Assembly (NCBI RefSeq): GCF_000764025.1
Contig: NZ_KN234755.1
Span: 1 to 64,000 of the forward strand
Reading direction: 5' to 3'
Source: Pseudohaliea rubra DSM 19751
Lineage (GTDB): Bacteria > Pseudomonadota > Gammaproteobacteria > Pseudomonadales > Halieaceae
Length of the DNA: 64,000 nt
Positions 34,403-60,626 of this stretch are shown here, one piece after another. Positions within the stretch are counted from its first letter, which is position 1, and each line of letters begins with the position of its first letter. The position numbers and the translations under genes are program-made. Under the pieces are notes generated by a model. It worked only from the letters and a program-made list of their open reading frames with translations, made no database searches and was not told the origin of the DNA.

Positions 34403-36208
34403 TCAGAGCAGGAGTCGGCGGATATCCCCGAGGAGGCCGAGCAGCGTTTCCATGAAGCGCCCGGCGTCACCGCCGTTGATCACCCGGTGGTCGTAGGACA
34501 GGCTCAGGGGCAGAAGGGTCCGCGGCTGGAAGGAGCTGCCGTCCCAGGCCGGCTGCACCCCCGCCCGGCCGACGCCGAGGATGGCGACTTCCGGCGTATT
34601 GATGATCGGCGTGAAACCGCGACCGCCCATGCTGCCCAGGCTGGATACGGTAAAGCATCCGCCCTGCATGTCCGCCGGCTTGAGCTTGCGCTCCCGGGCC
34701 AGTTCCGCCATTGCCAGCACTTCCTCGGCAAGCTCCCAGAGTGACTTGCGGTCGACATCCCGGAGCACGGGCACCATGAGCCCCACCGGCGTGTCGACGG
34801 CCATGCCGATGTGCACATAATCCTTGTAGGTAAGCGCATTGCCGCCGTCGGAGAGCGATGCATTGAACTTCGGATGGGCGCGGAGCGCCGCGGCGCAGGC
34901 CTTGAGGAGGAACGGCAGGGGCGTCAGGCGCGTGCCGCGCCCGGCCGCCTCTTCCTTCAGCGAGCGGCGGAAGCCTTCGAGCTCGGTGATATCCGCATCG
35001 TCAAAATGCGTGACATGGGGCACGTTCAGCCAGCTGCGCTGCATGTTCGCAGCGGTGAGCCTGTCCAGCTTGCTGCGCTCTTCCACGGTCACCGGGCCGA
35101 AGGCCGCAAAATCCACCTCCGGTATGGGCGGCACACCCGCCCCCGCGGCCGGTGCAGGGCCCTCTTTCAGCGTTTTCTGCACGTAGCCCTGTAGGTCTTC
35201 CTTGAGGATGCGTCCCCGCGGGCCGCTGCCGCTCACCCGGCCGAGTTCCACGCCGAATTCCCTCGCCAGCTTGCGTACCGCCGGCCCGGCGTAGACGTCG
35301 CGCTCCGGCGGCGCAACGGTCCCGGCGGGCGCAGAAGTCGGCGCAACGGTCTCCCGGGGTCCGGCACCGCTGCCCCCGACCTCGGAGATCGCCGCTGGCG
35401 CTTCGGACGCTTTCGGCGCCGGGGGCCCGGCACCTTCGCCGCGATCGTCCTTCCCGGCCGCCGGTGCACGTTCTTCTTCGCTTTCGCGCCCGGGTGCCTG
35501 GACCGTACCGGCCGCCGCCGCCGACGCCGGACTTGCCCTGCGCAGCCGCAGCAGCAGATCACCTTCGCCGACCGTTCCTCCGGCCTCGACAAGGAGCTCG
35601 ACAACCTCGCCGGCAGCCGGCGAGGGGACTTCCATGGACGCTTTGTCCGATTCAAGCACGACGAGGCTGTCGCCTTCCTCGACGGTGTCACCCACAGTGA
35701 CGGCAACCTCGACGAGGTCCACGGGGTCGTCCGAACCGATATCGGGAACCGGCACGTCAATGACCTCCCGGCTCAGCTCATCCTCCGCGCGCGCAGGTGC
35801 AGTTTCTTCGGCGCTATCAGCTCCGGAGGGAGCGCTGGGGGCGGTATCAGCTCCGGAGGGAGCGCTGTCCGCCGCTTCTGCCGGGGCGGCGTCCTCACCA
35901 CGCCCGGCGTCGCTGCCGTCCTCAGCCTCACGGCGCGCGGGCTCGCCGCCCGCTGAGCCGCTTTCAGCGGCCGCGGTCTCAACCCAGGCGATCGGGTCGC
36001 CCTCGGCAAGCTGATCGCCCTCCTTGACCAGCAGCTCCACAAGCCTGCCCGCGATCGTCGAGGGGATCTCCATGGAGGCCTTGTCCGACTCAAGGACGAT
36101 CAGCCCCTGTTCTTCCTCAATACTGTCGCCGGCCCCTACCAGCAATTCCACAACCTCCGCGGCCTCAGCACCGCCGATATCGGGAACGAATACCTGTTCT
36201 TTCGCCAC
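34403..36208 (-). CDS. aceF: Pyruvate dehydrogenase E2, dihydrolipoamide acetyltransferase
   Basis: E2 core of 601 residues. Two N-terminal lipoyl domains each carry the lipoylation motif VLESDKASMEIP or VLESDKASMEVP. They are joined by Ala/Glu/Asp/Ser-rich linkers, whose DNA contains a short duplicated stretch at about 35810-35870 encoding SAPSGAD-type repeats. A peripheral subunit-binding domain (AGPAVRKLAREFGVELGRVS) comes next. The catalytic domain ends with SLSYDHRVINGGDAGRFMET, the acetyltransferase His motif. It lies 26 bp after aceE. No lpd gene is in the window. Confidence 0.96.
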   Translation of the reverse strand: MAKEQVFVPDIGGAEAAEVVELLVGAGDSIEEEQGLIVLESDKASMEIPSTIAGRLVELLVKEGDQLAEGDPIAWVETAAAESGSAGGEPARREAEDGSDAGRGEDAAPAEAADSAPSGADTAPSAPSGADSAEETAPARAEDELSREVIDVPVPDIGSDDPVDLVEVAVTVGDTVEEGDSLVVLESDKASMEVPSPAAGEVVELLVEAGGTVGEGDLLLRLRRASPASAAAAGTVQAPGRESEEERAPAAGKDDRGEGAGPPAPKASEAPAAISEVGGSGAGPRETVAPTSAPAGTVAPPERDVYAGPAVRKLAREFGVELGRVSGSGPRGRILKEDLQGYVQKTLKEGPAPAAGAGVPPIPEVDFAAFGPVTVEERSKLDRLTAANMQRSWLNVPHVTHFDDADITELEGFRRSLKEEAAGRGTRLTPLPFLLKACAAALRAHPKFNASLSDGGNALTYKDYVHIGMAVDTPVGLMVPVLRDVDRKSLWELAEEVLAMAELARERKLKPADMQGGCFTVSSLGSMGGRGFTPIINTPEVAILGVGRAGVQPAWDGSSFQPRTLLPLSLSYDHRVINGGDAGRFMETLLGLLGDIRRLLL

Positions 36209-48126: not shown

Positions 48127-48247
48127 ACGATGGAAACCGCTATTTTATCACAGCTGACACCGTCTCCCCCACGGCCGGGTTACTTGCGCTAGGCAAGGGC
48201 GCCCATCGGTGATAGCCTCTGCGCAACGTCTGTCACACGCGCACGCC

Positions 48248-50080
48248 ATGACTTCGCAGCCGCAAGCGAAAGTGACACCTGCCTCGGCCCAACCGAAGGC
48301 AAAGATTCTGGTCAGCGACGACGATATGAACGTGCGCCTGCTGACGCGCCAGTGCCTCGAAGCCGAAGGCATGACCGTTGTCGAGGCGGCTGACGGCCAG
48401 CAGGCACTGGACGCCTTCCTCCGGGAGCGACCGGATCTTATTTTTCTGGACGTAGAAATGCCAGGGCTGTCGGGGCTGGAAGTATGCCGTCGCATCCGCG
48501 AGATGCCCCAGGGCGAGAATATCCCTATCATGATCGTCACCGGGTCCGACGATCGTAAATCCATCGATGAAGGCTTCGAAGCAGGCGCGACCCAGTACAA
48601 GACCAAGCCGGTCAACTGGTCCCTGCTCGGCCGCGATGTGCAGTACATGCTGCGCGCGAGCAACGCCCTCAACAGTCTGAAGCGTCAGGAAGACCGCCTG
48701 CGCTACCTGGCCTACTACGACCCACTCACCAACCTGCCCAACCGACGCAGCTTCAACGAGCAGCTCACCCGAATCCTCAAGCGCGCGCAGCGCCTCGATC
48801 ATAGCGCCGCACTGCTGTTCATCGACCTCGACAACTTCAAGCGCATCAACGACTCCATCGGCCACGGACGCGGTGATCGGCTGCTGGTGGAGATTGCCAA
48901 GCGCCTCGCCCGCGAGCTTCGCGAAGACGATGCCATCAACTACCTCTCCGACAGTAATGCGGGTGCTGTGGACGAGAGGGACCGCAACACAGAGATCGCC
49001 CGGCTGGGCGGCGACGAGTTCACCGTCGTTCTCTCGGACGTTCGCGACATGCGGGACGTGGAAAGCGTAGCGCAGCGGATCATCCAGACACTGTCGGAAC
49101 CGATTTCCCTGCACTCGCACAACCCGGTAGTGACCCCGAGCATCGGTATTGCCATGTACCCGCAGGACGGGCTCGACGCTGACAGCCTCGTGCGCAACGC
49201 CGACACGGCCATGTACGCGGCAAAGGCCGACGGCCGTGCCTGCTTCCGCTTCTATAACGAAGCCATGAACGCACGCTCCGTCGAACAGCTGAAGCTCGAA
49301 GAAGATCTCCGCGAGGCCATGCGGGAGGGGCAGCTTGAGCTGCGCTATCAGCCCCAGGTCGATACCACCACCGGCCGGGTCGTCAGCCTCGAGGCGCTCG
49401 TGCGCTGGAAACACCCTGTGCGCGGGCTGATTTCACCTGGGGATTTCATCCCCGTGGCGGAGCGGACCGGCCAGATCATCGAACTCGGCGAGTGGGTACT
49501 GTCCGAGGTAGCGAGGCACTGCACCTTCTGGGAAACGCTGGGCCTCGATGACTTCCGCGTTTGCGTGAATATCTCGCCGCTCCAGTTCAACCAGCCGGAC
49601 TTGGTGGAGCGTGTACGCTACTTCCTGGAACACTCGGGGCTGAGACCCTCCCGGCTCGAGCTGGAGCTGACAGAAAGCGCGATCATGACGGACGCCAAGA
49701 CCAACATCGACAAACTGCGCCAGCTCAACGAGCTGGGGCTCGATCTTGCGGTGGACGATTTTGGCACCGGCTACTCTTCCCTCAGTTACCTTAAACGCTT
49801 CCCCATCCGCACCCTGAAGATCGATCAGAGCTTCGTGGCCGACATGTCGAGCCACGATGGTGTTGCCATCGTCGACGCCATCATCGTTCTGGCCAAGACC
49901 CTGAACCTGCGCTCCATCGCCGAGGGTATCGAGACCCGCGACCAGCTCAGGCATCTGGCAGCGCAGCACTGCGACCTGCTGCAGGGCTTCTTTTTCGCCC
50001 GACCGCTTTATCCCGAGGACGTGCCCGACGCCCTGCGCCACGTTTACGCCCAGGATATCGCCGACGCCCTGAGGGACTGA
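48248..50080 (+). CDS. Response regulator with GGDEF and EAL domains (c-di-GMP)
   Basis: A protein of about 610 residues. REC domain at about 20-135: ILVSDDDMNVR, phosphoacceptor D68 in IFLDVEMPGLSG, and the Lys in QYKTKPVNW. GGDEF domain: FIDLDNFKRINDSIGHGRGD and intact RLGGDEFT at about 255, with an extra 15-20 residue loop just before it. EAL domain from about 345: SLEALVRWKHP (E382), CVNISPLQFNQPDLVER, VDDFGTGYSSLSYLKRF and AEGIETRDQLRHL. It can make or break c-di-GMP and is a possible phospho-output for the hybrid kinase downstream. The start is uncertain (GTG 48209 also in frame). It ends 9 bp before the S8 protease gene, so the two are probably co-transcribed. Confidence 0.92.
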   Translation: MTSQPQAKVTPASAQPKAKILVSDDDMNVRLLTRQCLEAEGMTVVEAADGQQALDAFLRERPDLIFLDVEMPGLSGLEVCRRIREMPQGENIPIMIVTGSDDRKSIDEGFEAGATQYKTKPVNWSLLGRDVQYMLRASNALNSLKRQEDRLRYLAYYDPLTNLPNRRSFNEQLTRILKRAQRLDHSAALLFIDLDNFKRINDSIGHGRGDRLLVEIAKRLARELREDDAINYLSDSNAGAVDERDRNTEIARLGGDEFTVVLSDVRDMRDVESVAQRIIQTLSEPISLHSHNPVVTPSIGIAMYPQDGLDADSLVRNADTAMYAAKADGRACFRFYNEAMNARSVEQLKLEEDLREAMREGQLELRYQPQVDTTTGRVVSLEALVRWKHPVRGLISPGDFIPVAERTGQIIELGEWVLSEVARHCTFWETLGLDDFRVCVNISPLQFNQPDLVERVRYFLEHSGLRPSRLELELTESAIMTDAKTNIDKLRQLNELGLDLAVDDFGTGYSSLSYLKRFPIRTLKIDQSFVADMSSHDGVAIVDAIIVLAKTLNLRSIAEGIETRDQLRHLAAQHCDLLQGFFFARPLYPEDVPDALRHVYAQDIADALRD

Positions 50081-50089
50081 TCACCGCAC

Positions 50090-52063
50090 ATGGGAGGCAA
50101 CATCAACGGGCTGCTCCGAAGTCTCGGCGCCCCCACGCTCTGTTTCCTCGCTGCGGTGGCCCACGGCCAGCCCGCCTCCGTCATGCTCCAGGGCGAAGCG
50201 GCGGAAACGCTCCGGGAGCAGGTACTTGCCGTCGGCGGAGAGCTTACCCACTTCCTCCCCATCATCGACGCCATCGGCGCGCGGTTGACGCCAGCCCAGG
50301 TGGATCAGCTCCGCGGCGCCGCGGGGGTGCATCGCATTATCGACGATCTGGACCGCAAGGAACCGGAAGCACCCCCGCCAGCTTGTCAGCTCGGCGCCGG
50401 CCTGGAGCTTGATATCGATGGGCACGTAGTACGGTGGCGCCTCTTCAACAAGGGGAAAGACAGCGCCGGGCTGGAAACCGTGACGCTCGCCTGGCCCGAG
50501 ACCCTGGGCGAACTCGACAGGGCCAGCTTCGCCGGCCGGGCACTGACAGCAACCCTGGATGGCAGCAGACAGGGAGCGACCCTGCTCGCGGCCGATGCCC
50601 TCCCCCTCGCCGGCGGCGCCGCGGCGACCTTGCAACTCGAGTTTTCACGCCCCTGGCCGTCAGGTGAGCTGCACCAGCGCCACCTGAACCTCACCGCAAC
50701 CTTTGCCGATGAATGCGCCGTCGAGCTAATTCCGGGCTACGATGACAACGACGGAGACAGCTACTACAGCACCGTTGCCGGAGCAGACCTGCTGCACCGC
50801 CACGGCATCACAGGGGCCGGCGTCACCGTGGCCGTGCTGGACTCTGGGCTCTGGGACGACCCAAGGCTGACCCGGGACACGCAGGGCGAGCCCCGCGTCC
50901 TCGCAAGCTACGACGCCATCGCCGGCGAAGAAGTCAGCATCGCCTTTGACGAGAGCGGTCACGGCAGCCACATGACCAGCATTCTTGCCCAGAGCCGCCC
51001 CGTCACCCGGGCTGAAGCCACTCCCGGAGCCTGGCGCGGCATTGCACCGGATGCGCGGCTCGTGGTGGTAAAGGCCTTCAGCCGTGAAGGCCAGGGCGAC
51101 CTGCTGGATATCGTGCGTGGCGTACAGTGGATCGTCGACCACCGGGAGACCTATGGGATACGCGTAATCAACCTATCGTTCGCGGCAAAGCCACGCTGGC
51201 CCTACTGGCAGGACCCCATCAATCAGGCCCTGATGCGCGCCTGGGACGCCGGCATCGTCGCCGTCGCCGCCGCTGGCAACGAAGGGCCCGACGCGATGAC
51301 CGTTGGCTCCCCGGGGAACCTCCCGTACCTGCTCACTGTAGGCGCCATCACGGACTCCTGGACCGTCCACGACCCCGACGACGATTATCTACCCGACTTT
51401 TCATCCCGCGGCCCCACGCCAAGTGCGCACATCAAACCGGACCTCGTCGCCCCCGGGGGACACATGGCCGGCCTGACCCGCCCCGGCTCCACGCTGACGC
51501 AGGAATTCCCGGAGTACCAGCTTGCGAACGGTGACTTCGTGATGACCGGAACCTCCCAGGCCGCTGCGCTCGTTTCCGGCCTGGTCGCCCTGCTCCTGGA
51601 AGTCGAACCGGAACTGACACCGGACGATGTGAAATGTAAGTTCATGTCGTCCGCCAACCCTGCCATCAGTGCCGACGGCAGGCTAAGCTACTCCCCCTTC
51701 GAGCAGGGAGCAGGCGCAATCAGCATCCAGCGCGCGCTTACCCTGGGCGATACCGGCTGCGGGAATGCGGGGCTCAATCTCAAGACCGATATCGCTGGCG
51801 AAGATCATTTCGAGGGCCCTGCCGTCCTGGCGGAAGATGGCTCCCCGACACTACCCGGTCTCGAACAGATGGTGACTCCCGAACCCCCGGAGAAAGGACA
51901 CAGCGAGAGCCGCCGGTGGGGTATAAAAGCCCATATCGAAAGACCGCAGCACGGCATGAGTGAGCCGGGTACTCCCGAGGACCCGCAGCTTCCCTTCGAT
52001 TGGCACAGCCTCTATCTCGAGGAGAAAGCCAGAATGGAGCAACTGTCTCGCACGCCCGAGTAG
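50090..52063 (+). CDS. Exported S8 subtilisin-like serine protease
   Basis: A 657-residue subtilase. Signal peptide: GLLRSLGAPTLCFLAAVAHG. An inhibitor-I9-like propeptide region reads LREQVLAVGGELTHFLPIID. The catalytic triad is D251 (VTVAVLDSGLWDD), H291 (DESGHGSHMTSILA) and S489 (FVMTGTSQAAALVSG), with oxyanion Asn in VAVAAAGNEGPD. A C-terminal tail of about 90 Pro/Glu-rich residues follows. The gene is GC-rich like its surroundings. It stops 203 bp before the repeat-peptide gene, which makes it a candidate maturation protease for that product (inference). Confidence 0.93.
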   Translation: MGGNINGLLRSLGAPTLCFLAAVAHGQPASVMLQGEAAETLREQVLAVGGELTHFLPIIDAIGARLTPAQVDQLRGAAGVHRIIDDLDRKEPEAPPPACQLGAGLELDIDGHVVRWRLFNKGKDSAGLETVTLAWPETLGELDRASFAGRALTATLDGSRQGATLLAADALPLAGGAAATLQLEFSRPWPSGELHQRHLNLTATFADECAVELIPGYDDNDGDSYYSTVAGADLLHRHGITGAGVTVAVLDSGLWDDPRLTRDTQGEPRVLASYDAIAGEEVSIAFDESGHGSHMTSILAQSRPVTRAEATPGAWRGIAPDARLVVVKAFSREGQGDLLDIVRGVQWIVDHRETYGIRVINLSFAAKPRWPYWQDPINQALMRAWDAGIVAVAAAGNEGPDAMTVGSPGNLPYLLTVGAITDSWTVHDPDDDYLPDFSSRGPTPSAHIKPDLVAPGGHMAGLTRPGSTLTQEFPEYQLANGDFVMTGTSQAAALVSGLVALLLEVEPELTPDDVKCKFMSSANPAISADGRLSYSPFEQGAGAISIQRALTLGDTGCGNAGLNLKTDIAGEDHFEGPAVLAEDGSPTLPGLEQMVTPEPPEKGHSESRRWGIKAHIERPQHGMSEPGTPEDPQLPFDWHSLYLEEKARMEQLSRTPE

Positions 52064-52101: not shown

Positions 52102-52119
52102 CTACCCCAAAGGGGGTAG
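52102..52119. promoter_or_regulatory. Perfect palindrome upstream of the repeat-peptide gene
   Basis: CTACCCC (52102-52108), AAAG, GGGGTAG (52113-52119). Read as TACCCCA-AA-GGGGGTA it has the 7-2-7 layout of NarL/FixJ-family operators. It lies 147 bp before the ATG at 52267. It has no T tract, so it is not an intrinsic terminator for the protease gene. Confidence 0.55.
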
Positions 52120-52266
52120 CACACCGCCTTCATCAATTCCGGCCCCGCGCCTAACTTCAAGTCGTACGCAACGGAAACGATCTTCTCGGAGATCAATTCA
52201 AAGGTCAGACGCCGGGAACGCCGGTGCTGGTAAAGCAAATTCGACGACGAAGGTAGGCGTGAGATT

Positions 52267-52887
52267 ATGAAGAAACTGGTAAGAGAAACGGCATTCGCCA
52301 CACTCAGCATCGGTGCAGCGCTTACCGCAGTGGCAACCAACGCTGAAATCAATCAAGAGATCGGCAGCCTCCGCATTGAAGTCGCCAAGACCATGCTCTA
52401 TCAGAGCAGCCCTAAGACCACGGCGGGTTACAAGTGGACTGGGACCTCTGGTCCTCAAGGTAGCAGTCTTGAGATTACGCAAAGTCGTTCAAACACTCAT
52501 ATCGCTTCCGGCTACAAGTGGAATCGCGCAAGCCCGATACAGCATAGCGCGACTGCAGACAGCAGGGGAGCTGTCGCTGCTCACGAAGCTGGTTACAAGT
52601 GGGGCATTCGTACCAACTCTGATCAGGCTGGCTACAAGTGGGGGATCCGATCCAACGCTGACCAGGCTGGCTACAAGTGGGGGATCCGGTCCGACGCTGA
52701 CCAGGCTGGCTACAAGTGGGGGATCCGATCCAACGCTGACCAAGCTGGCTACAAGTGGGGGATCCGATCCGACGCTGACCAGGCCGGCTACAAGTGGGGC
52801 ATCCGGTCCAACGCTGACCAAGCCGGCTATAAGTGGGGGATCCGATCCAACGCTGACCAGGCCGGCTACAAGTGGGGCATTCGATAA
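52267..52887 (+). CDS. Exported tandem-repeat GYKWGIR protein, candidate multicopy peptide precursor
   Basis: A 206-residue protein of no family I recognise. Residues 1-26 form a signal peptide (MKKLVRETAFATLSIGAALT, cleavage near TNA-E). Two degenerate GYKW motifs lie at residues 54-57 and 82-85. From residue 108 there are eight head-to-tail units AGYKWGIRSNADQ (13 residues), the last ending exactly at GYKWGIR before the stop. Linkers vary only as TNSDQ, SNADQ or SDADQ. No Cys is present. Upstream is an S8 protease, downstream two propeller sensors; a terminator follows directly, so it is a separate transcript. It could be a precursor cut into heptapeptides or 13-mers, or an adhesive/amyloid-like repeat protein. 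No modifying enzyme is visible nearby. Confidence 0.85.
   Translation: MKKLVRETAFATLSIGAALTAVATNAEINQEIGSLRIEVAKTMLYQSSPKTTAGYKWTGTSGPQGSSLEITQSRSNTHIASGYKWNRASPIQHSATADSRGAVAAHEAGYKWGIRTNSDQAGYKWGIRSNADQAGYKWGIRSDADQAGYKWGIRSNADQAGYKWGIRSDADQAGYKWGIRSNADQAGYKWGIRSNADQAGYKWGIR
52588..52884 (+). repeat. 39-bp coding tandem repeat, 7.6 copies
   Basis: Seven full 39-bp units start at 52588, 52627, 52666, 52705, 52744, 52783 and 52822, followed by a 24-bp partial unit (52861-52884). Differences between units 2 and 8 are synonymous third-position changes or the Asn/Asp swap in the linker; unit 1 also differs in two linker codons. It is contiguous with no spacers, so it is not a CRISPR array. Confidence 0.95.
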
Positions 52888-52922
52888 CACCAACGTACCA
52901 AGCTGCAGGAATAATAAGCTAG

Positions 52923-52955
52923 AAAAGCCAGCGCCTGTAGGCACTGGCTTTTTTT
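52923..52955 (+). terminator. Terminator after the repeat-peptide gene
   Basis: AGCCAGCGCC, TGTA loop, GGCACTGGCT with one mismatch, then seven T (52949-52955). It separates the peptide gene from the sensor gene starting at 53017. Confidence 0.9.
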
Positions 52956-53016: not shown

Positions 53017-56000
53017 ATGCTTCAGCTACTGCAATCCATTAGAGCCACTCTATTCCTCGCAGTTCTACTGACATCGCCTGGAGCAAACTCGGCCGACGAG
53101 CCACCAACCCAATATCATTTTCAAATAGCTGAAGTCTCCGACGACCTCACGCAGAGCTCCGTATCTGACCTACTTCAGTCCAAAACTGGAGAGCTTTGGA
53201 TTGCCACCCAAGAAGGCCTGAACAGATATAACGGCCACACTCTCATCACATACCGCCATTCACCATCAGCACAGGGGAGCATATCTTCAGATGCTGTTAC
53301 GAGCATAACTGAATCCTCTGATGGCAGCATATGGGTAGCCACGATCAATGGGGGATTAAACCGTTTCAACCCTAAAAAGAGAGTCTTCGAAACTTTCCTT
53401 TCTTCAAATGAACCTGAAAGCCTGGTATCTAATGACGTTTACGCAGTTTTTGCGGATTCTAAAGGGAAAATCTGGATTGGGTACGAGGGGGCCATCAGCT
53501 ACCTTGACCTGCAAAGCAACAGTTACAAACATCTAATTGGCGATCGGGACCTCGATCGTTCTCTAGGGCTAGTAACAAGTTTCGCCGAAAGCTCCCAGGG
53601 AGAAATCTGGGTATCGACTACAGAAGCGGGCCTTCTCCAAATCAGCGATAGCCTGGAAATTGAACGCCAACAAACGCTGCAGACATCCGACCGCCAAGCA
53701 ACCAAGCCCGCACAGCCTACTCACATAGCCCTCCATGGCGAAGAGATCTGGGTTGGCACATTAAACAGTGGGCTCTTTATGCTCAACACATCAAGCGGGA
53801 AATTTCAGCAATACAATACTAGAACGGCCACAACGCGGCTCCCCTCGAATACCATCTACGACATTTTTTTTGATGATCAGTCGAACCTATGGATTGGGAC
53901 TAACTCCGGTTTAGCCGTGCTCGACGAGAGTCGAACCAACCTTCAACTCTACAGCAATGAGGACAGCGCCCTGCCAGCCGCCAGGATTACCTCAATTACT
54001 CAGACTCGCGACGGCACCTACTGGGTGGGCACTTTTTTCGGGCTCACGAAGGCGAGACGGTCTTATTTCAGCAAATATACCCCAGAGAATTTCGGACTCT
54101 CTAACCCTTCAGTGAACGCGTTTGCCACCACTGGAGATGGATCCATCTGGGTGGGGACGGATGACGGATTAAACCAGCTTAGCCAGAATAGCGAAAGGTT
54201 CAACTGGCTAAATACATTCACAAATCCAAGCTTATCGGACAGCGCCGTCATGTCGCTATTCGGAGAGGACGAAACACTGTGGATCGGAACTTACGCAGGA
54301 GGGCTCAACAAGTACAACCTGAAGACCAAAGAACTTACAAAAATTCGCGCGTCTCAGAGCACCCCTCGAGCCCTCGCTTCAGACGGAATAACATCCATCC
54401 TAAGAGCTTCTACCGGCCACTTAATTGTTGGGACGTATCAAGGCGGCTTATCGGTTTTTGATCCGGAATCCCAACACGCGACCGTCTACCTGCATGAACC
54501 ATCAAACCGCACATCGATCAGCAGCAACAATGTTTTAGCATTACTCGAAGATTCCCGTGGGGCAGTTTGGATAGGCACAGAAAACGGCCTAAATCTCCTT
54601 GACCTCAAGACACGGGATTTCCAACGATACTATGCCGAGAATGGGAATACCAGCAGCCTGTCAAGCAACATGGTGTGGAGCCTTCATGAGGACCGAACGG
54701 GCAACCTCTGGCTTGGCACCAATGGTGGCGGTCTGAATTTGTGGCGAAAAAATCGCATAGAGGCGAATGCACCACAGTTTGAGCATTATTCGGAAAACAT
54801 ATCCCTACCCAGCAGTTCTATCTTCGGAATCCAAGAAGACAGTAAAGGAAATCTCTGGCTTAGCCACAACAAGGGGGTGACTAGATTTAACCCGAGCTCC
54901 CTTGATGTTCGTCACTTTCGAGAAGTAGACGGCCTACAAGATTCGGAATTCAATATGGGCGCAGCCTTCAGCGACAAAGAAGGCCACATTTACTTCGGTG
55001 GCCCCAGAGGCTTCAACAGAATCACCCCTGCTAACGTACCCGACTCAGCTCCAAGTCCTCAGGTGTCCATTGCCGAAATTCGCGTCATGAATCAACCGGC
55101 AAACTTGCAGGAGCCGTTCAATGAGGTCTCTGCGCTCCATCTCGATTACACAGACAGAATGTTTACAGTCGAATTTTTCGCAGCCGACTTTTCGTCACCC
55201 GAAAGTATACTCTATGCCTACAAGCTTGAGGGTATATCACCAGACTGGGTTATCTCGAGAGATGCGAAAAAGGCTTCCTTCACGACATTGCCGGCAGGCG
55301 AGTACCGTTTGCGACTCGCTGCGGCCAATGCGGCCGGGACCTGGAACTGGGACGCGAAACAAATCGACATTATCGTCGCTCCGCCACCATGGCTCAGCAA
55401 GGCTGCTTACATAATTTACGCAACGCTAGCGACGACGGCCGTACTGATCGCCATAGGATTTCTTACTTCGCGAGCGAGACGGGCAGAAGCGAGAAGAATG
55501 GAACTGGAGAATAAAGTCCGAGAGCGAACTCTGGAATTAGAAGAGGCGACAACGGTCGCTGAAGAGGCGAATAAAGCAAAGTCACAGTTCTTGGCGACCA
55601 TGACACACGAAATCCGTACTCCCATGCATGGGATTATCGGAATGTCCGAACTTCTTCTAAGCTCAAAGCTCACGCCGTCACAGCGTCGCTTCGCTGAGAC
55701 AGCTAAGCAAAGCGGGGAATCTCTACTCCAACTAATTAACGACATCCTTGACCACTCAAAACTCGAGGCCGATAAAACAGAGCTTGAGATTACACGTTTT
55801 GACCTGGTAGCCCTCATCGACGATGTGTGTCGCCTCCAATCCGAAGTAGCTTTTCGGAAGGGCATTCGCGTTTATAACACTTGCGATCCGGAAGGGCCAA
55901 GAGACTACTTGGGCGACCCCACTAGAATTCGACAGATCGTCACGAACTTAGTTGGGAATGCGATAAAATTTACCGAGGACGGAGCAGTACGGGTTTCGCA

Positions 56001-57513
56001 AAAAATCACTCAACCGATTACGCCAGAAGGAATTTACCGTGTATGCATTGCAGTCGATGATGACGGCATTGGTATGGACGAAACAACGCAAGCAAAGGTC
56101 TTCGAATCGTACACGCAGGCTGACGCCAGCACGACACGGCGCTTCGGTGGATCAGGCTTAGGTCTTACCATCTCAAGGAAGTATGCAGAGCTGATGGGCG
56201 GGGAGATACAAGTAAAATCGACCCCCGGCGTGGGCTCCAGAGTTGCTCTCGTTCTACCAATTAACAGTACTAAAGGCACTCAGGAGCTCACATTCAACCA
56301 GGAACCAGCGCTCCAATGCACGATATTTTCGGATGACGAGCTGATAACTAAAATGCTGGACTCACATCTACGCGTCCTATCTGTTACGACCATTGATCAT
56401 CAATCGGGCATGATAGCGCCTTATGTAGGCGATGCTGATGAACCTCAGAGCGGCATAAAGCGAGTTGCATTCGTCCCGATCACCTACAACACGCCTGAAC
56501 GCGCGGCACAAACCTCAGGCATGACTTCCCGCTTCAAGTCGATTGTTTACTATAGCTTTTCTGCGAAGGAGGTTGCGCTTGCCCTGGACAAGGGGCTGCA
56601 AGCGATTCATTTACCGGCAGTGAATAACGAAATAAAAGCCTTTATCGGTGAAGCAACAGGCAATCTTGATTCTTCCCCACAACCTGAGCCTACGACCAAG
56701 CCTGCGGTAAATTCTATCGTCGCAAGGGCTCATATTCTCGTCGCGGAAGATATGCCGGTGAATCAAATGATTATTGGCGAGTTCCTACACGCGGCGTCCT
56801 GCACTTTTGATATTGCGGCGAGCGGGAAAGAAGCCGTGGATTTGTTTGCAATTGGGGCCTACGATTTGGTCTTGATGGACTGTCAAATGCCTATCATGGA
56901 CGGCTACGCCGCCACGAGAGCAATCAGAAAAAGCGAACCAATTGGCTCGCACATCCCGATCATTGCCCTTACTGCCGGGGGTAGCAAGGAAGACATAGTC
57001 CAGTGTCAGAAGGCCGGCATGGACAAACTTCTACAAAAGCCATTTAAGCAAGCAGACATCATTCTGATACTTGATGAATTTGGGCCCCCTATGCTCACGG
57101 GCGGCCATCCATACAAAGAAACAGAGAGTCAACAGTTATCGCCTTTTTTTGTGGACTCAGGCACAGAAATAGACGATACAGTAATTGATGGCTTGCGACG
57201 CCTCGCCGCTCAGACTTCTAATAGTAAACTCCTGGAAAGCCTCTTAGAGGGTTATCACGATCAAATGCAACAGAAGTTGTTCGAGCTTGATGCGGAGACA
57301 ACTTCCATGAATGCGGCTAATGTTGCAACGATTGCACATGCCATCAAATCGATGAGCGCTAATATGGGTGCTATTCTCGTTAGAGAAATAGCACAAAGAC
57401 TTGAAGAGGAGGCCAAGGCCGGTTGGGTTTCGGACTTCGAAAAGCAACACGAGAGCATAAAATGTGCGTTCATGTCTTTCATGAAGGCAGCCGAGAAAAT
57501 TTCTTTTCGGTAA
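53017..57513 (+). CDS. Hybrid sensor kinase: double propeller, Y_Y_Y, HisKA, HATPase, REC, HPt
   Basis: A 1498-residue protein. Signal peptide at 1-26. Residues 30-690 contain about 14 Reg_prop motifs (for example [25 protein letters not shown]), enough for two seven-blade periplasmic propellers. Y_Y_Y domain at about 708-790, one membrane helix at about 795-817. HisKA with H864 in [20 protein letters not shown]. HATPase N-box [15 protein letters not shown]-box DDDGIGMDE and G-box [19 protein letters not shown] degenerate receiver-like stretch spans about 1100-1225. REC with D1288 in [16 protein letters not shown]. HPt with H1441 in [14 protein letters not shown]. All phosphorelay residues are present. 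There is no DNA-binding output domain, so a separate regulator is needed. AT-richer than its neighbours. Confidence 0.93.
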
Positions 57514-57542
57514 ACGCACCTCAGGAGCTCCACAGGCTATGT

Positions 57543-60500
57543 ATGCTTACGATTATCGTAAGCGTCGGTTTATTTTCTTTCCCAAAGCTCACAACGGCGG
57601 CTTCAACTGACCCCGGGAACTTTCTTAATGTAACCCCCCTTGCCCTTGCAGAAACATCCGGGACTACGTTTACAGACATTGTCGTCCGAGCCGATCGCGA
57701 CGTCTGGGCAGCGAGCCTAAGCTCCGTCATTCGTTACGACGGCCACTCCGTACAAAGGTATAGCCTGCCAAGGATGGGTAGCGACGGCTTCCCAGTTGCG
57801 CGGATAGCAGATCTCTTCCTAGGACCTTACGAAAAAGTTTGGGTGGCTGGTTTTAATGGCAGCATTTACAGATTTAATCCCAATCATGCGCGCTTCCAAC
57901 TGATTGCATCGCTCAGCACGGAGCACGCTGCGCTAAGCGCCGTTAAACACGATGGACAGACAAGCTTATGGTTAGGTTATGCCGACGGAAGCTGCAAAGT
58001 CTATGATATCGCCATGGGGCATATTCGCTCCGTTTGCGATCGTTTAAATACTCCAGTCAGGGACTTTTCCTTTAGCTCAAGCTCCACTCTGATCCTATCA
58101 GAAGATGGCCGCCTTCTTCGACTACCAAATCAAGCAATAGGACCGTCTGTTCCCATCCAATATTCCTGCGAAGGTGAGCCAGGGCGATTCAGCAAACTTG
58201 AGATACTTGATGAGACCTCGGTATTAATCGGATCAGAAGGTAATGGCCTATTCCGGTGCAATCTCTCCCAGCCGCGAAGTTCCTTAAAGACCGTGCCACT
58301 TGGTTCAGGAAATACGGGCAGGGCAACCATTCACGAACTCTTAATTAGCCACAGCACTGACACAGTCGTTGTAGCTACGGACTCCAGTTTAGTAATTCTT
58401 GATGCGAGATCACTGAATATTCTCTACAACTCCCGGAACGCAAGTGACCTTGTATCGACGGAGTTTACCGGGATTGCCATGCAGAACGCAGATACAATTT
58501 GGGCGTCTAGTTTCGCCGGTCTACATAGACTCCAAGTATCACCAACGGTAGTCGTACGCGAATTGCCAGCAACCTCTTCGCCAGCGATCGTAGGCTTTGC
58601 AAGCGTCGACGAAAATACAACTGTAATAGCAGATTATGCCGGCTTACTGCTCCTTAACAAAAAAAATACCGAGGATATAAATGAGCACAGTATTGCCCGC
58701 ATCTGCGAAGCGTCGGGCGGAATTACGGCTGTTGCCGTGCGTGGGGACAGCATCATCTATGGGCTAAGAAGCGGGGAGGTCCTCCAAGGCACCATTATGA
58801 GTGGCAGTACAGAGTGCGAGCCAATCGTGCTTGCAAGCGGTGTTGGACCCGTTAGTGCCGTTACCATTGTAGATAACGAGATATTCATTGGCACTTACGG
58901 TAATGGAGTTTACAGACTACGAGACTCGGGCAGTCTCGAGAAATTGACCCCCCCTGAAGCCTCCAACCCTATCCAGAAGAGGATAGTTCAGATCGAGCCG
59001 GTAGGCAGCTTCGGAGTGTTGTTGCTCACTGAAGGCGGCTTGATAGCGATCCCAGAAAGTCAGAGCTCAAAAGAATCTCTTTCCAAGTTAACTCGACTAC
59101 TGGAGGGCACCACACCATGGGCAGCCTCAACTCTAGGAGATCTTCTCTGGCTTGCGACGCCTACGGATGGAGTCTATGTGGTTTCATTAAAGGATTTCCC
59201 CTTGCGCGAGCCAACAATCTTGGCGCATCAGGAAGTTCCTGGGGAAATCATTCAGGCAGTCGAAGCGACGTCTGACACGGAAGCTCTAATCGCAACCACT
59301 ACTGGTGTTTTTAACGTTAGCACCACAGGCGGCATTTCCAGAGTTTACGCCGGCTCGGGCAATGCCCTAGTCAGATTCGACTTTGGAGCATCTCACAGTA
59401 ATTCTTCGAGCGTCCTATTCGGCGGAACCGGGGGCTTTGTCTATATTGACCCCGACAGAATACAGGTAGCGGTGAAAACACCTGCCCACGGGATCACTTC
59501 CTACGCCATTGATGAAAAGCGCTTTCTCCTCTTTCGTCCACTGACTGAGTTTGACCGGGTGGTTATCGAACCCGAAAATCGGAGATTAACTTTTAATATT
59601 GGTTCACTAGCGCCCCTGATAGTGAAAGATCTAGAACTTAGGTACAAGCTGAAGGGCTTCGATGCGACGTGGAGTCAAGGCACGACACGAAACGAAATCT
59701 CCTATACCAGCCTGCCCCCAGGCAGTTACCAATTTCAGTCTCAAGCCAAAGACTCTAGTGGCAAATGGAGTTCTGCAACCGTCTCTCTAACAGTTCAGGT
59801 GCTACCACCTTGGTGGCGATCCTTGTGGGCTCTCACGGGTTATCTTTTGGCTGCGATAGGGCTAGTAGCATTGATTAAACACTACTACGGCACAATCCTC
59901 CTCTCCCGCCGCGCCACGCAGCTCGCTCGCGAGATGACGGCCACCGCTAACCAGGCAATAGAGGACATGCAGGAGGAGGTGGAAGCACAAGGGCGATTGC
60001 TGGAAAACGTCACGCGCAAGAATGTTGCGACGCTTTCCTGGATCTCGGAACTAGTGGGTCGTCAGGCGGACACGCTGCCGGACGCCCTGTCGGCGGAGTT
60101 AGCCAAGGTTTCTCTTGAGCGTATCGATGCCTTCGTGTGCCTTGAGTACGCGCTGCGCTATCGTGATGATCGCGTGCTGGCAGATCTTCATAGCTTTACG
60201 GATGAGTGCATTGCAATGCTCTGCGCCCGTCGCGGCTGCAGCAGCAGGTTTACGCTGATCAATGAGGTTAGCGATGAGCTCATTGATGCTGAGCACGCTG
60301 CGCGAGTCGCAACGGTTATCTTCGAACTGCTGGTCAACGCAATAGATCATGCGTTTGAGGGCAGGGAGCATGGCAATTTTCTGCGCGTGGCCTTCGAACT
60401 GGCCCCGCTGGACGACTCAACGGCCCTGAGGGCCGTAGTCACCGTGGAAGATAACGGTATCGGGCTGCCGGAGGGGCTAGCTCTCGAGGACTACGCGACG

Positions 60501-60626
60501 GCGGGCTTTTCTCTGGTCCGCGAGGTTGTCGCACACTATGGGGGCAGCATCGAACGGCCGGCTTCCAGTGCAGGTACATCATGGCGCGTCGAACTGCCGC
60601 TACCGCGAGAACCGGTGGCGGAGTGA
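57543..60626 (+). CDS. Second propeller sensor with HATPase domain, phosphoacceptor His apparently lost
   Basis: About 1027 residues from ATG 57543 (MLTIIVSVGLFSFPKLTTAA as signal peptide; start uncertain, an upstream frame overlaps the first sensor gene). At least ten propeller motifs are seen (KVWVAGFNGSIYRFNP, EIFIGTYGNGVYRL). Y_Y_Y domain from about 680, membrane helix at about 757-780. The cytoplasmic part resembles HisKA_2-type kinases: N-box FELLVNAIDHAFEG (N932), D-box VEDNGIGLPEG, G-box AGFSLVREVVAHYGG. In the region where HisKA_2 proteins have H-R-V-K-N, the sequence is ENVTRKNVATLSWI, with no His. It lies 29 bp after the hybrid kinase gene, probably the same transcript. DNA from about 59880 on returns to GC-rich composition. 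Confidence 0.85.
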   Translation: MLTIIVSVGLFSFPKLTTAASTDPGNFLNVTPLALAETSGTTFTDIVVRADRDVWAASLSSVIRYDGHSVQRYSLPRMGSDGFPVARIADLFLGPYEKVWVAGFNGSIYRFNPNHARFQLIASLSTEHAALSAVKHDGQTSLWLGYADGSCKVYDIAMGHIRSVCDRLNTPVRDFSFSSSSTLILSEDGRLLRLPNQAIGPSVPIQYSCEGEPGRFSKLEILDETSVLIGSEGNGLFRCNLSQPRSSLKTVPLGSGNTGRATIHELLISHSTDTVVVATDSSLVILDARSLNILYNSRNASDLVSTEFTGIAMQNADTIWASSFAGLHRLQVSPTVVVRELPATSSPAIVGFASVDENTTVIADYAGLLLLNKKNTEDINEHSIARICEASGGITAVAVRGDSIIYGLRSGEVLQGTIMSGSTECEPIVLASGVGPVSAVTIVDNEIFIGTYGNGVYRLRDSGSLEKLTPPEASNPIQKRIVQIEPVGSFGVLLLTEGGLIAIPESQSSKESLSKLTRLLEGTTPWAASTLGDLLWLATPTDGVYVVSLKDFPLREPTILAHQEVPGEIIQAVEATSDTEALIATTTGVFNVSTTGGISRVYAGSGNALVRFDFGASHSNSSSVLFGGTGGFVYIDPDRIQVAVKTPAHGITSYAIDEKRFLLFRPLTEFDRVVIEPENRRLTFNIGSLAPLIVKDLELRYKLKGFDATWSQGTTRNEISYTSLPPGSYQFQSQAKDSSGKWSSATVSLTVQVLPPWWRSLWALTGYLLAAIGLVALIKHYYGTILLSRRATQLAREMTATANQAIEDMQEEVEAQGRLLENVTRKNVATLSWISELVGRQADTLPDALSAELAKVSLERIDAFVCLEYALRYRDDRVLADLHSFTDECIAMLCARRGCSSRFTLINEVSDELIDAEHAARVATVIFELLVNAIDHAFEGREHGNFLRVAFELAPLDDSTALRAVVTVEDNGIGLPEGLALEDYATAGFSLVREVVAHYGGSIERPASSAGTSWRVELPLPREPVAE

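Follow-up and report, generated by a model that had tools for sequence, protein, structure and literature searches.

We analysed a window of 64,000 nucleotides from Pseudohaliea rubra DSM 19751, in which one gene (52267..52887, on the + strand, as are all the genes and promoter features located below) encodes an exported protein of 206 aa with eight GYKWGIR cores, as established by translation, tandem-repeat search and homologues. Translation bore out the signal peptide and the two degenerate GYKW motifs claimed in the initial annotation. A signal-peptide-like N-terminus, judged by eye from the sequence, covers residues 1-26 (52267..52344), and the degenerate motifs lie at residues 54-57 (52426..52437) and 82-85 (52510..52521), W57 being invariant and W85 at least 90% conserved in the family alignment. 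The eight cores (52591..52884), delimited by TRF and unit analysis, are all spaced by exactly 13 residues and reach the C-terminus; the stop codon directly follows the last R, and the chain thus ends exactly at GYKWGIR, as had been claimed. The earlier count of eight 13-residue units held for the cores but not for the full units, of which we found only seven, of the (S/T)(N/D)(A/S)DQAGYKWGIR type, the first core being preceded by VAAHEA instead. In the TRF search, the 39-bp tandem array at 52588-52885 (score 456) was by far the strongest in the window; a 30-bp direct repeat (1.9 copies, 96% match) was seen at 35810-35867.

The array protein matched nothing over the cut-off in Pfam or NCBIfam, where weak matches stayed below it, and gave only marginal matches to PHROG, in agreement with the initial view that it belongs to no described family. 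No mention of the GYKWG motif or of related units was found in open-licence papers. A PDB profile match to prolysostaphin (E 1.7e-5), the propeptide of which presumably has 13-residue repeats, was taken as an effect of chance or repeat composition, and no other sign of kinship was seen.

Conserved neighbourhood and promoter

Domain searches identified a REC-GGDEF-EAL response regulator for c-di-GMP turnover (48209..50080), conserved upstream of an S8 subtilase gene (50090..52063) that in turn precedes the array gene. The subtilase carries an export signal, a prodomain-like region and a catalytic domain (Pfam Peptidase_S8, 6e-47) with an intact triad, the catalytic D, H and S being invariant in 35 aligned relatives, and a comparison of S8 C-termini revealed a single motif, SRRWGIKAHIER, at its C-terminus (51908..51943). 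Downstream of the array gene, we identified a conserved hybrid sensor kinase, HK1 (53017..57513), composed of Reg_prop propellers, Y_Y_Y, HisKA, HATPase, REC and Hpt domains, and a second Y_Y_Y sensor kinase, HK2 (57423..60626), recognised by its domains, the start of which is probably near 57540. The gene order REC-GGDEF-EAL, S8 subtilase, array gene, HK1 and HK2 is kept across Halieaceae, with HK2 in most loci. The neighbours between 43097 and 63463 further include an acyltransferase, TusA, an M48 peptidase, NadA, an enoyl-CoA hydratase, an adenine glycosylase and a TetR protein. No modification enzyme occurs among them, so that the RiPP part of the multicopy secreted peptide precursor proposed initially was not upheld, while its anatomy was.

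Comparison of upstream regions revealed a conserved palindrome, CTACCCCAAAGGGGGTA, at 52102..52118, which is probably an activator site. In many relatives, CTACCCC-N4-GGGTA precedes the array gene, with conserved -35/-10-like blocks after it; in the window, these were recognised by eye at 52128..52155 as CTTCAT (-35-like) and CCTAAC (-10-like; CGTATAAC in many relatives), and a sigma-70 consensus scan found no promoter at them. The exact pattern CTACCCCAAANRGGGTA occurs once in the window genome and once in each of the four genomes having it, always at the array gene, and its reversed control pattern had zero occurrences in the genomes searched. We take the palindrome to resemble NarL-type 7-2-7 boxes. 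Many loci (upstream regions of L076, L080, L084, L086, L087 and L083) have a second palindrome (e.g. TACCCCATATGGGGCA or TACCCCATTTGGGTCA), which lies near the S8 stop codon, some 120 bp ahead of the first. On the 3′ side of the array gene, a hairpin followed by a T run (52921..52955; -23.5 kcal/mol, z -2.96) is a probable intrinsic terminator, which a simple terminator scan did not list on the + strand. This terminator-like hairpin suggests that the array gene probably has its own transcript.

Separate and fused arrays

A search for homologues with conserved repeats, as advised in the initial annotation, returned proteins of the same layout across the family. The array gene constitutes an orphan family of Halieaceae, with 59 array-bearing loci of 2 to 19 copies and a period of 13, sometimes 12, residues. 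Among 58 genomes searched as relatives, 24 (with the window genome) had it, all of one family, and it was found in no other family among 391 genomes of the order. A plasmid search gave no match, nor did viral contigs searched with one exact pattern. Cultured relatives with the family are Haliea, Parahaliea and Chromatocurvus. The N-terminal degenerate motifs are mostly (G/S)(Y/F)(K/R)W even in the clades with GSKW, GNRW and ASRW (L041, L055, L091); because both are kept despite the changed array core, they seem to have a separate role.

Arrays are always linked to an S8 subtilase and nearly always to an envelope sensor with a c-di-GMP link. The three array-gene genomes without an adjacent HK1 have HK1 elsewhere, and in one genus (L040, L055, L091) HK1 has moved off the array locus and is retained elsewhere in the genome at 42-45% identity. 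In one draft genome (G150, 87% complete), the array gene was present and HK1 was not detected. Five genomes without the S8 gene are also without HK1, and one genome, G002, kept S8 and REC-GGDEF-EAL and lost both the array gene and HK1. A single C-terminal motif, RxWG(V/I)KxHxER, was found in 73 of 74 array-type S8 proteins and was absent from all seven fused-array S8 proteins and all four array-less ones. The latter belong to a few Luminiphilus-like genomes (g13), in which the partner gene has no tandem array and contains only single FQWGS and ITWPS motifs. As some of these genomes keep S8, HK1 and the partner protein without the array, many copies are not essential there. In G033 (one contig; L037, 11423-12841), the reading frame of the subtilase is broken in two near residue 446 and a degenerate SYADDNRGPR closes the array; the module may be decaying here, or the sequence may contain an error.

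Members of the same S8 subfamily from two Halieaceae genera and from other families of gammaproteobacteria carry arrays at their own C-terminus, including AGNYWN (56 copies), GYLWNN (nine), DAYLWF (five), DSYFFN (at least six) and EAFMWD (nine), as well as GYIWNM with SDADNAGYIWNM units, GLIWKN, DAVIWRL, GDPWGGGY and EGVVWNN. GYIWNMSDADNA is another aromatic array fused to the S8 C-terminus, and the fused unit SDADNAGYIWNM closely resembles the window unit SNADQAGYKWGIR. The separate array belongs to a broader theme, in which the array can also be fused to the subtilase. A Reg_prop sensor adjoins the fused S8 gene in all ten loci with a readable flank (L052, L053, L105, L116, L118 and L125-L129; L111 and L117 are cut off by the contig edge). 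These sensors carry GGDEF or GGDEF-EAL, or are hybrid kinases with a nearby or adjacent REC-GGDEF-EAL gene, and in five genomes (G000, G007, G487, G1077 and G1059) no gene other than the sensor beside the fused S8 gene gave strong Reg_prop matches at the threshold used. Six fused S8 proteins (L053, L105, L116, L126, L127, L128) have a common tail after the array, approximately GVN(T/N)W(A/V)xxE, as in AGVNTWAPQE, AGINLWVPAE, IGVNNWVDQQ and ININTWVDPQ.

AlphaFold2 modelled the array protein at a mean pLDDT of 44, with about 35 over the array and no strands of three or more residues in it, from an alignment of only 18 rows. In the model of a fused-array subtilase, the catalytic domain was confident and the array was at pLDDT 23-30. 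The natural reading of these models is that the arrays of both forms are linear unfolded motifs, with shallow alignments lowering the confidence for repeats.

Selection on the core motif

Among the last seven units of the window array, pS was 0.33 against a pN of 0.035, and only synonymous DNA differences separate the units within DQAGYKWGIR, a stretch of ten residues. The reading frame is thus under selection, and the array, which has homologues of the same layout across the family, is not due to chance. Over 53 homologous genes, the median pS was 0.385 and the median pN 0.066, with pS above pN in 53 of 53. Copies within a gene differ by 0.8-4.6% per position in the core heptapeptide (-3 to +3 around W); in the 53 genes, the difference is 17-24% at linker positions and 34-53% at synonymous sites of the core codons. 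The units were picked by W and Q(-5), the invariance of which in these unit statistics thus follows from the selection of units; in the alignments, too, both are invariant or almost invariant. In the fused arrays, with one exception, the amino acids are identical at a pS of 0.49-1.2.

From one gene to another, the core shows wide variation (Y/S/F/N/M/H/K and I/L/R/F/V/M) and differs by lineage, as in GYKWGIR, AYRWALR, GNRWGRR and ASRWIIR, with GSKWGRR and RSRWRRD in other arrays. Recent duplication alone does not fit these data, since it would leave the synonymous sites identical, and neither does a plain structural repeat, which would vary within genes as much as between them. Core identity within a gene, set against drift between lineages, is itself an unusual evolutionary signature. 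Most genes have R as the last core residue, while the remainder have N, K, Q, D, S or G there, and no single simple cleavage rule fits. Core and S8 catalytic-domain divergence were correlated (rho 0.38, n 58), but the correlation was gone after two clades with S/N/H/K cores were dropped; co-evolution of protease and substrate is therefore not established, and we do not use the correlation as support. Core divergence was never correlated with the HK1 propeller, and scanning S8 columns against core residues returned clade-linked columns only.

A candidate signalling module and its alternatives

We propose, with a probability of roughly 0.4, that the secreted array of identical linear motifs, the subtilase and the Reg_prop sensor constitute one signalling module. 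Two observations favour this: array, protease and c-di-GMP sensor are linked across families, and the cores are identical and private. The proposal is further supported by the arrays fused to the same S8 subfamily in other families, by the Reg_prop sensors with c-di-GMP domains beside that fused form, by the S8-less genomes without HK1 and the joint loss of array gene and HK1 in G002, by the predicted disorder of the arrays in both forms, and by a dedicated promoter element that occurs nowhere else in the genomes searched. In such a module, the precursor would be exported through its signal peptide and its array would stay unfolded. We infer a cleavage step, in which the co-encoded S8 subtilase would recognise and cut the array and thereby set free numerous equal peptides, centred on W and here about 13 residues long, and a ligand-receptor contact, in which the HK1 propeller domains would read the freed peptides, or else the array itself or its occupancy. 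The presumed direction of signalling would take the phosphate from HK1 to its own REC and Hpt and on to the REC-GGDEF-EAL protein, so changing c-di-GMP. In other lineages, the subtilase itself carries the array, and GGDEF or GGDEF-EAL is fused directly to the propeller sensor. The co-loss of the array gene with HK1 points to the sensor as the motif reader, while the fusion of arrays to S8 and the single S8 C-terminal motif point to the protease.

One chain here combines an export signal, judged by eye, with identical cassettes, and the genes for a putative processing protease and for sensors are genetically linked to it, as would be expected of a secreted multicopy peptide signal; the secreted subtilase and periplasmic-type sensor kinase alongside make a signal-peptide (pheromone) role more likely. 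A bolder and more tentative version, which we regard as doubtful, is a widespread gammaproteobacterial peptide language, in which each lineage would have a private aromatic word, present in many copies on the subtilase or on a precursor of its own, that the subtilase would release and Reg_prop sensors would read to set c-di-GMP.

The array might instead tie up the subtilase as a multivalent decoy or substrate, with the sensor reading the protease state or the uncut array and thus envelope quality or a foreign protease rather than a released peptide. In 73 of 74 array-type genomes, the S8 protein itself carries one conserved C-terminal copy of a related motif, and protease and array meet in any case where the two are fused. 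However, no inhibitor-like fold was predicted in the models, and within-gene core identity with lineage drift is equally expected of a private signal; we consider this reading rather unlikely. It appears unlikely that the array protein serves as an adhesive or matrix component at the surface, with the subtilase trimming it under c-di-GMP control in the manner of LapA-LapG-LapD. The array protein is exported, repetitive, aromatic and basic, adjoins c-di-GMP genes and ranges from 2 to 19 copies, but it is short (about 200 aa), and we saw in it neither an anchor nor a sorting signal nor a transmembrane segment. Moreover, its cores do not vary within genes as much as between them, as structural repeats usually do, and their chemistry shifts from GYKWGIR through GNRWGRR to EAFMWD. 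Neither a LapG-type protease nor a LapD-type receptor lies beside the array gene, where the protease is of the S8 type and the sensor of the Reg_prop type.

A functional amyloid or ordered beta-solenoid, an amyloid-like form having been raised initially, would account for the short tandem aromatic repeats and for a chain that stops exactly at the end of one, but is improbable. An ordered form is unsupported at the low pLDDT predicted over the array (about 35 from 18 aligned rows, and 23-30 for the fused array), GNRWGRR and GSKWGRR have lost the alternating Y/W/I pattern, and the period shifts between 6, 12 and 13; no curated amyloid family in Pfam or NCBIfam matched the array protein over the cut-off. 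Antimicrobial peptides, likewise suggested at first in a cationic form, are very improbable, since only some arrays are W/R-rich and cationic (GNRWGRR, RSRWRRD), arrays elsewhere in the wider group are neutral or acidic (AGNYWN 0, EAFMWD -2), and the arrays are linked to a sensor with c-di-GMP output instead of genes for immunity or export.

Gram-negative bacteria rarely use secreted peptide signals, and the signalling module looks like an undescribed peptide-based system among them, which bears on the switch of marine bacteria between swimming and attached life via c-di-GMP. Outside glycan sensing, few ligands of Reg_prop sensors are known. Here, one locus, present in cultured species, supplies the sensor, the protease and candidate ligand sequences, which makes the proposal directly testable with synthetic peptides.

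The S8 domain, the Reg_prop sensor and GGDEF/EAL are of known kinds, whereas the array family and its combination with them appear undescribed in the open-licence literature, in which we found no report of an array, a subtilase and a Reg_prop sensor together. The subtilase shares the catalytic domain and triad with S8 proteins near PDB 3afg and 9ues, but its subfamily is linked to Reg_prop sensors and bears C-terminal aromatic arrays or a single RxWG(V/I)KxHxER. HK1 has the same order of propellers, Y_Y_Y, HisKA, HATPase and REC as the Reg_prop/Y_Y_Y hybrid two-component sensors of Bacteroides; it differs from them in having no AraC output but an Hpt domain and a REC-GGDEF-EAL partner, and in its linkage to a subtilase and an array rather than to glycan utilisation genes. 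LapA-LapG-LapD, a system of c-di-GMP controlled adhesin release, likewise unites an exported repeat protein, an envelope protease and c-di-GMP proteins in one module; here, however, the protease is an S8 subtilase and not a LapG-type cysteine protease, there is no LapD-like receptor or large RTX adhesin, and sensing appears to run from outside to inside. Peptide pheromone systems, such as yeast alpha-factor and the Gram-positive precursor, protease and histidine-kinase sets, use a secreted multicopy precursor, a protease and a sensor. Unlike these, the present system is Gram-negative, has a Reg_prop/Y_Y_Y propeller sensor with c-di-GMP output and sometimes carries the array on the protease, with a putative processing site and release; in common with them, it has a signal peptide, identical cassettes split by linkers, a lineage-specific core, and protease and sensor genes alongside.
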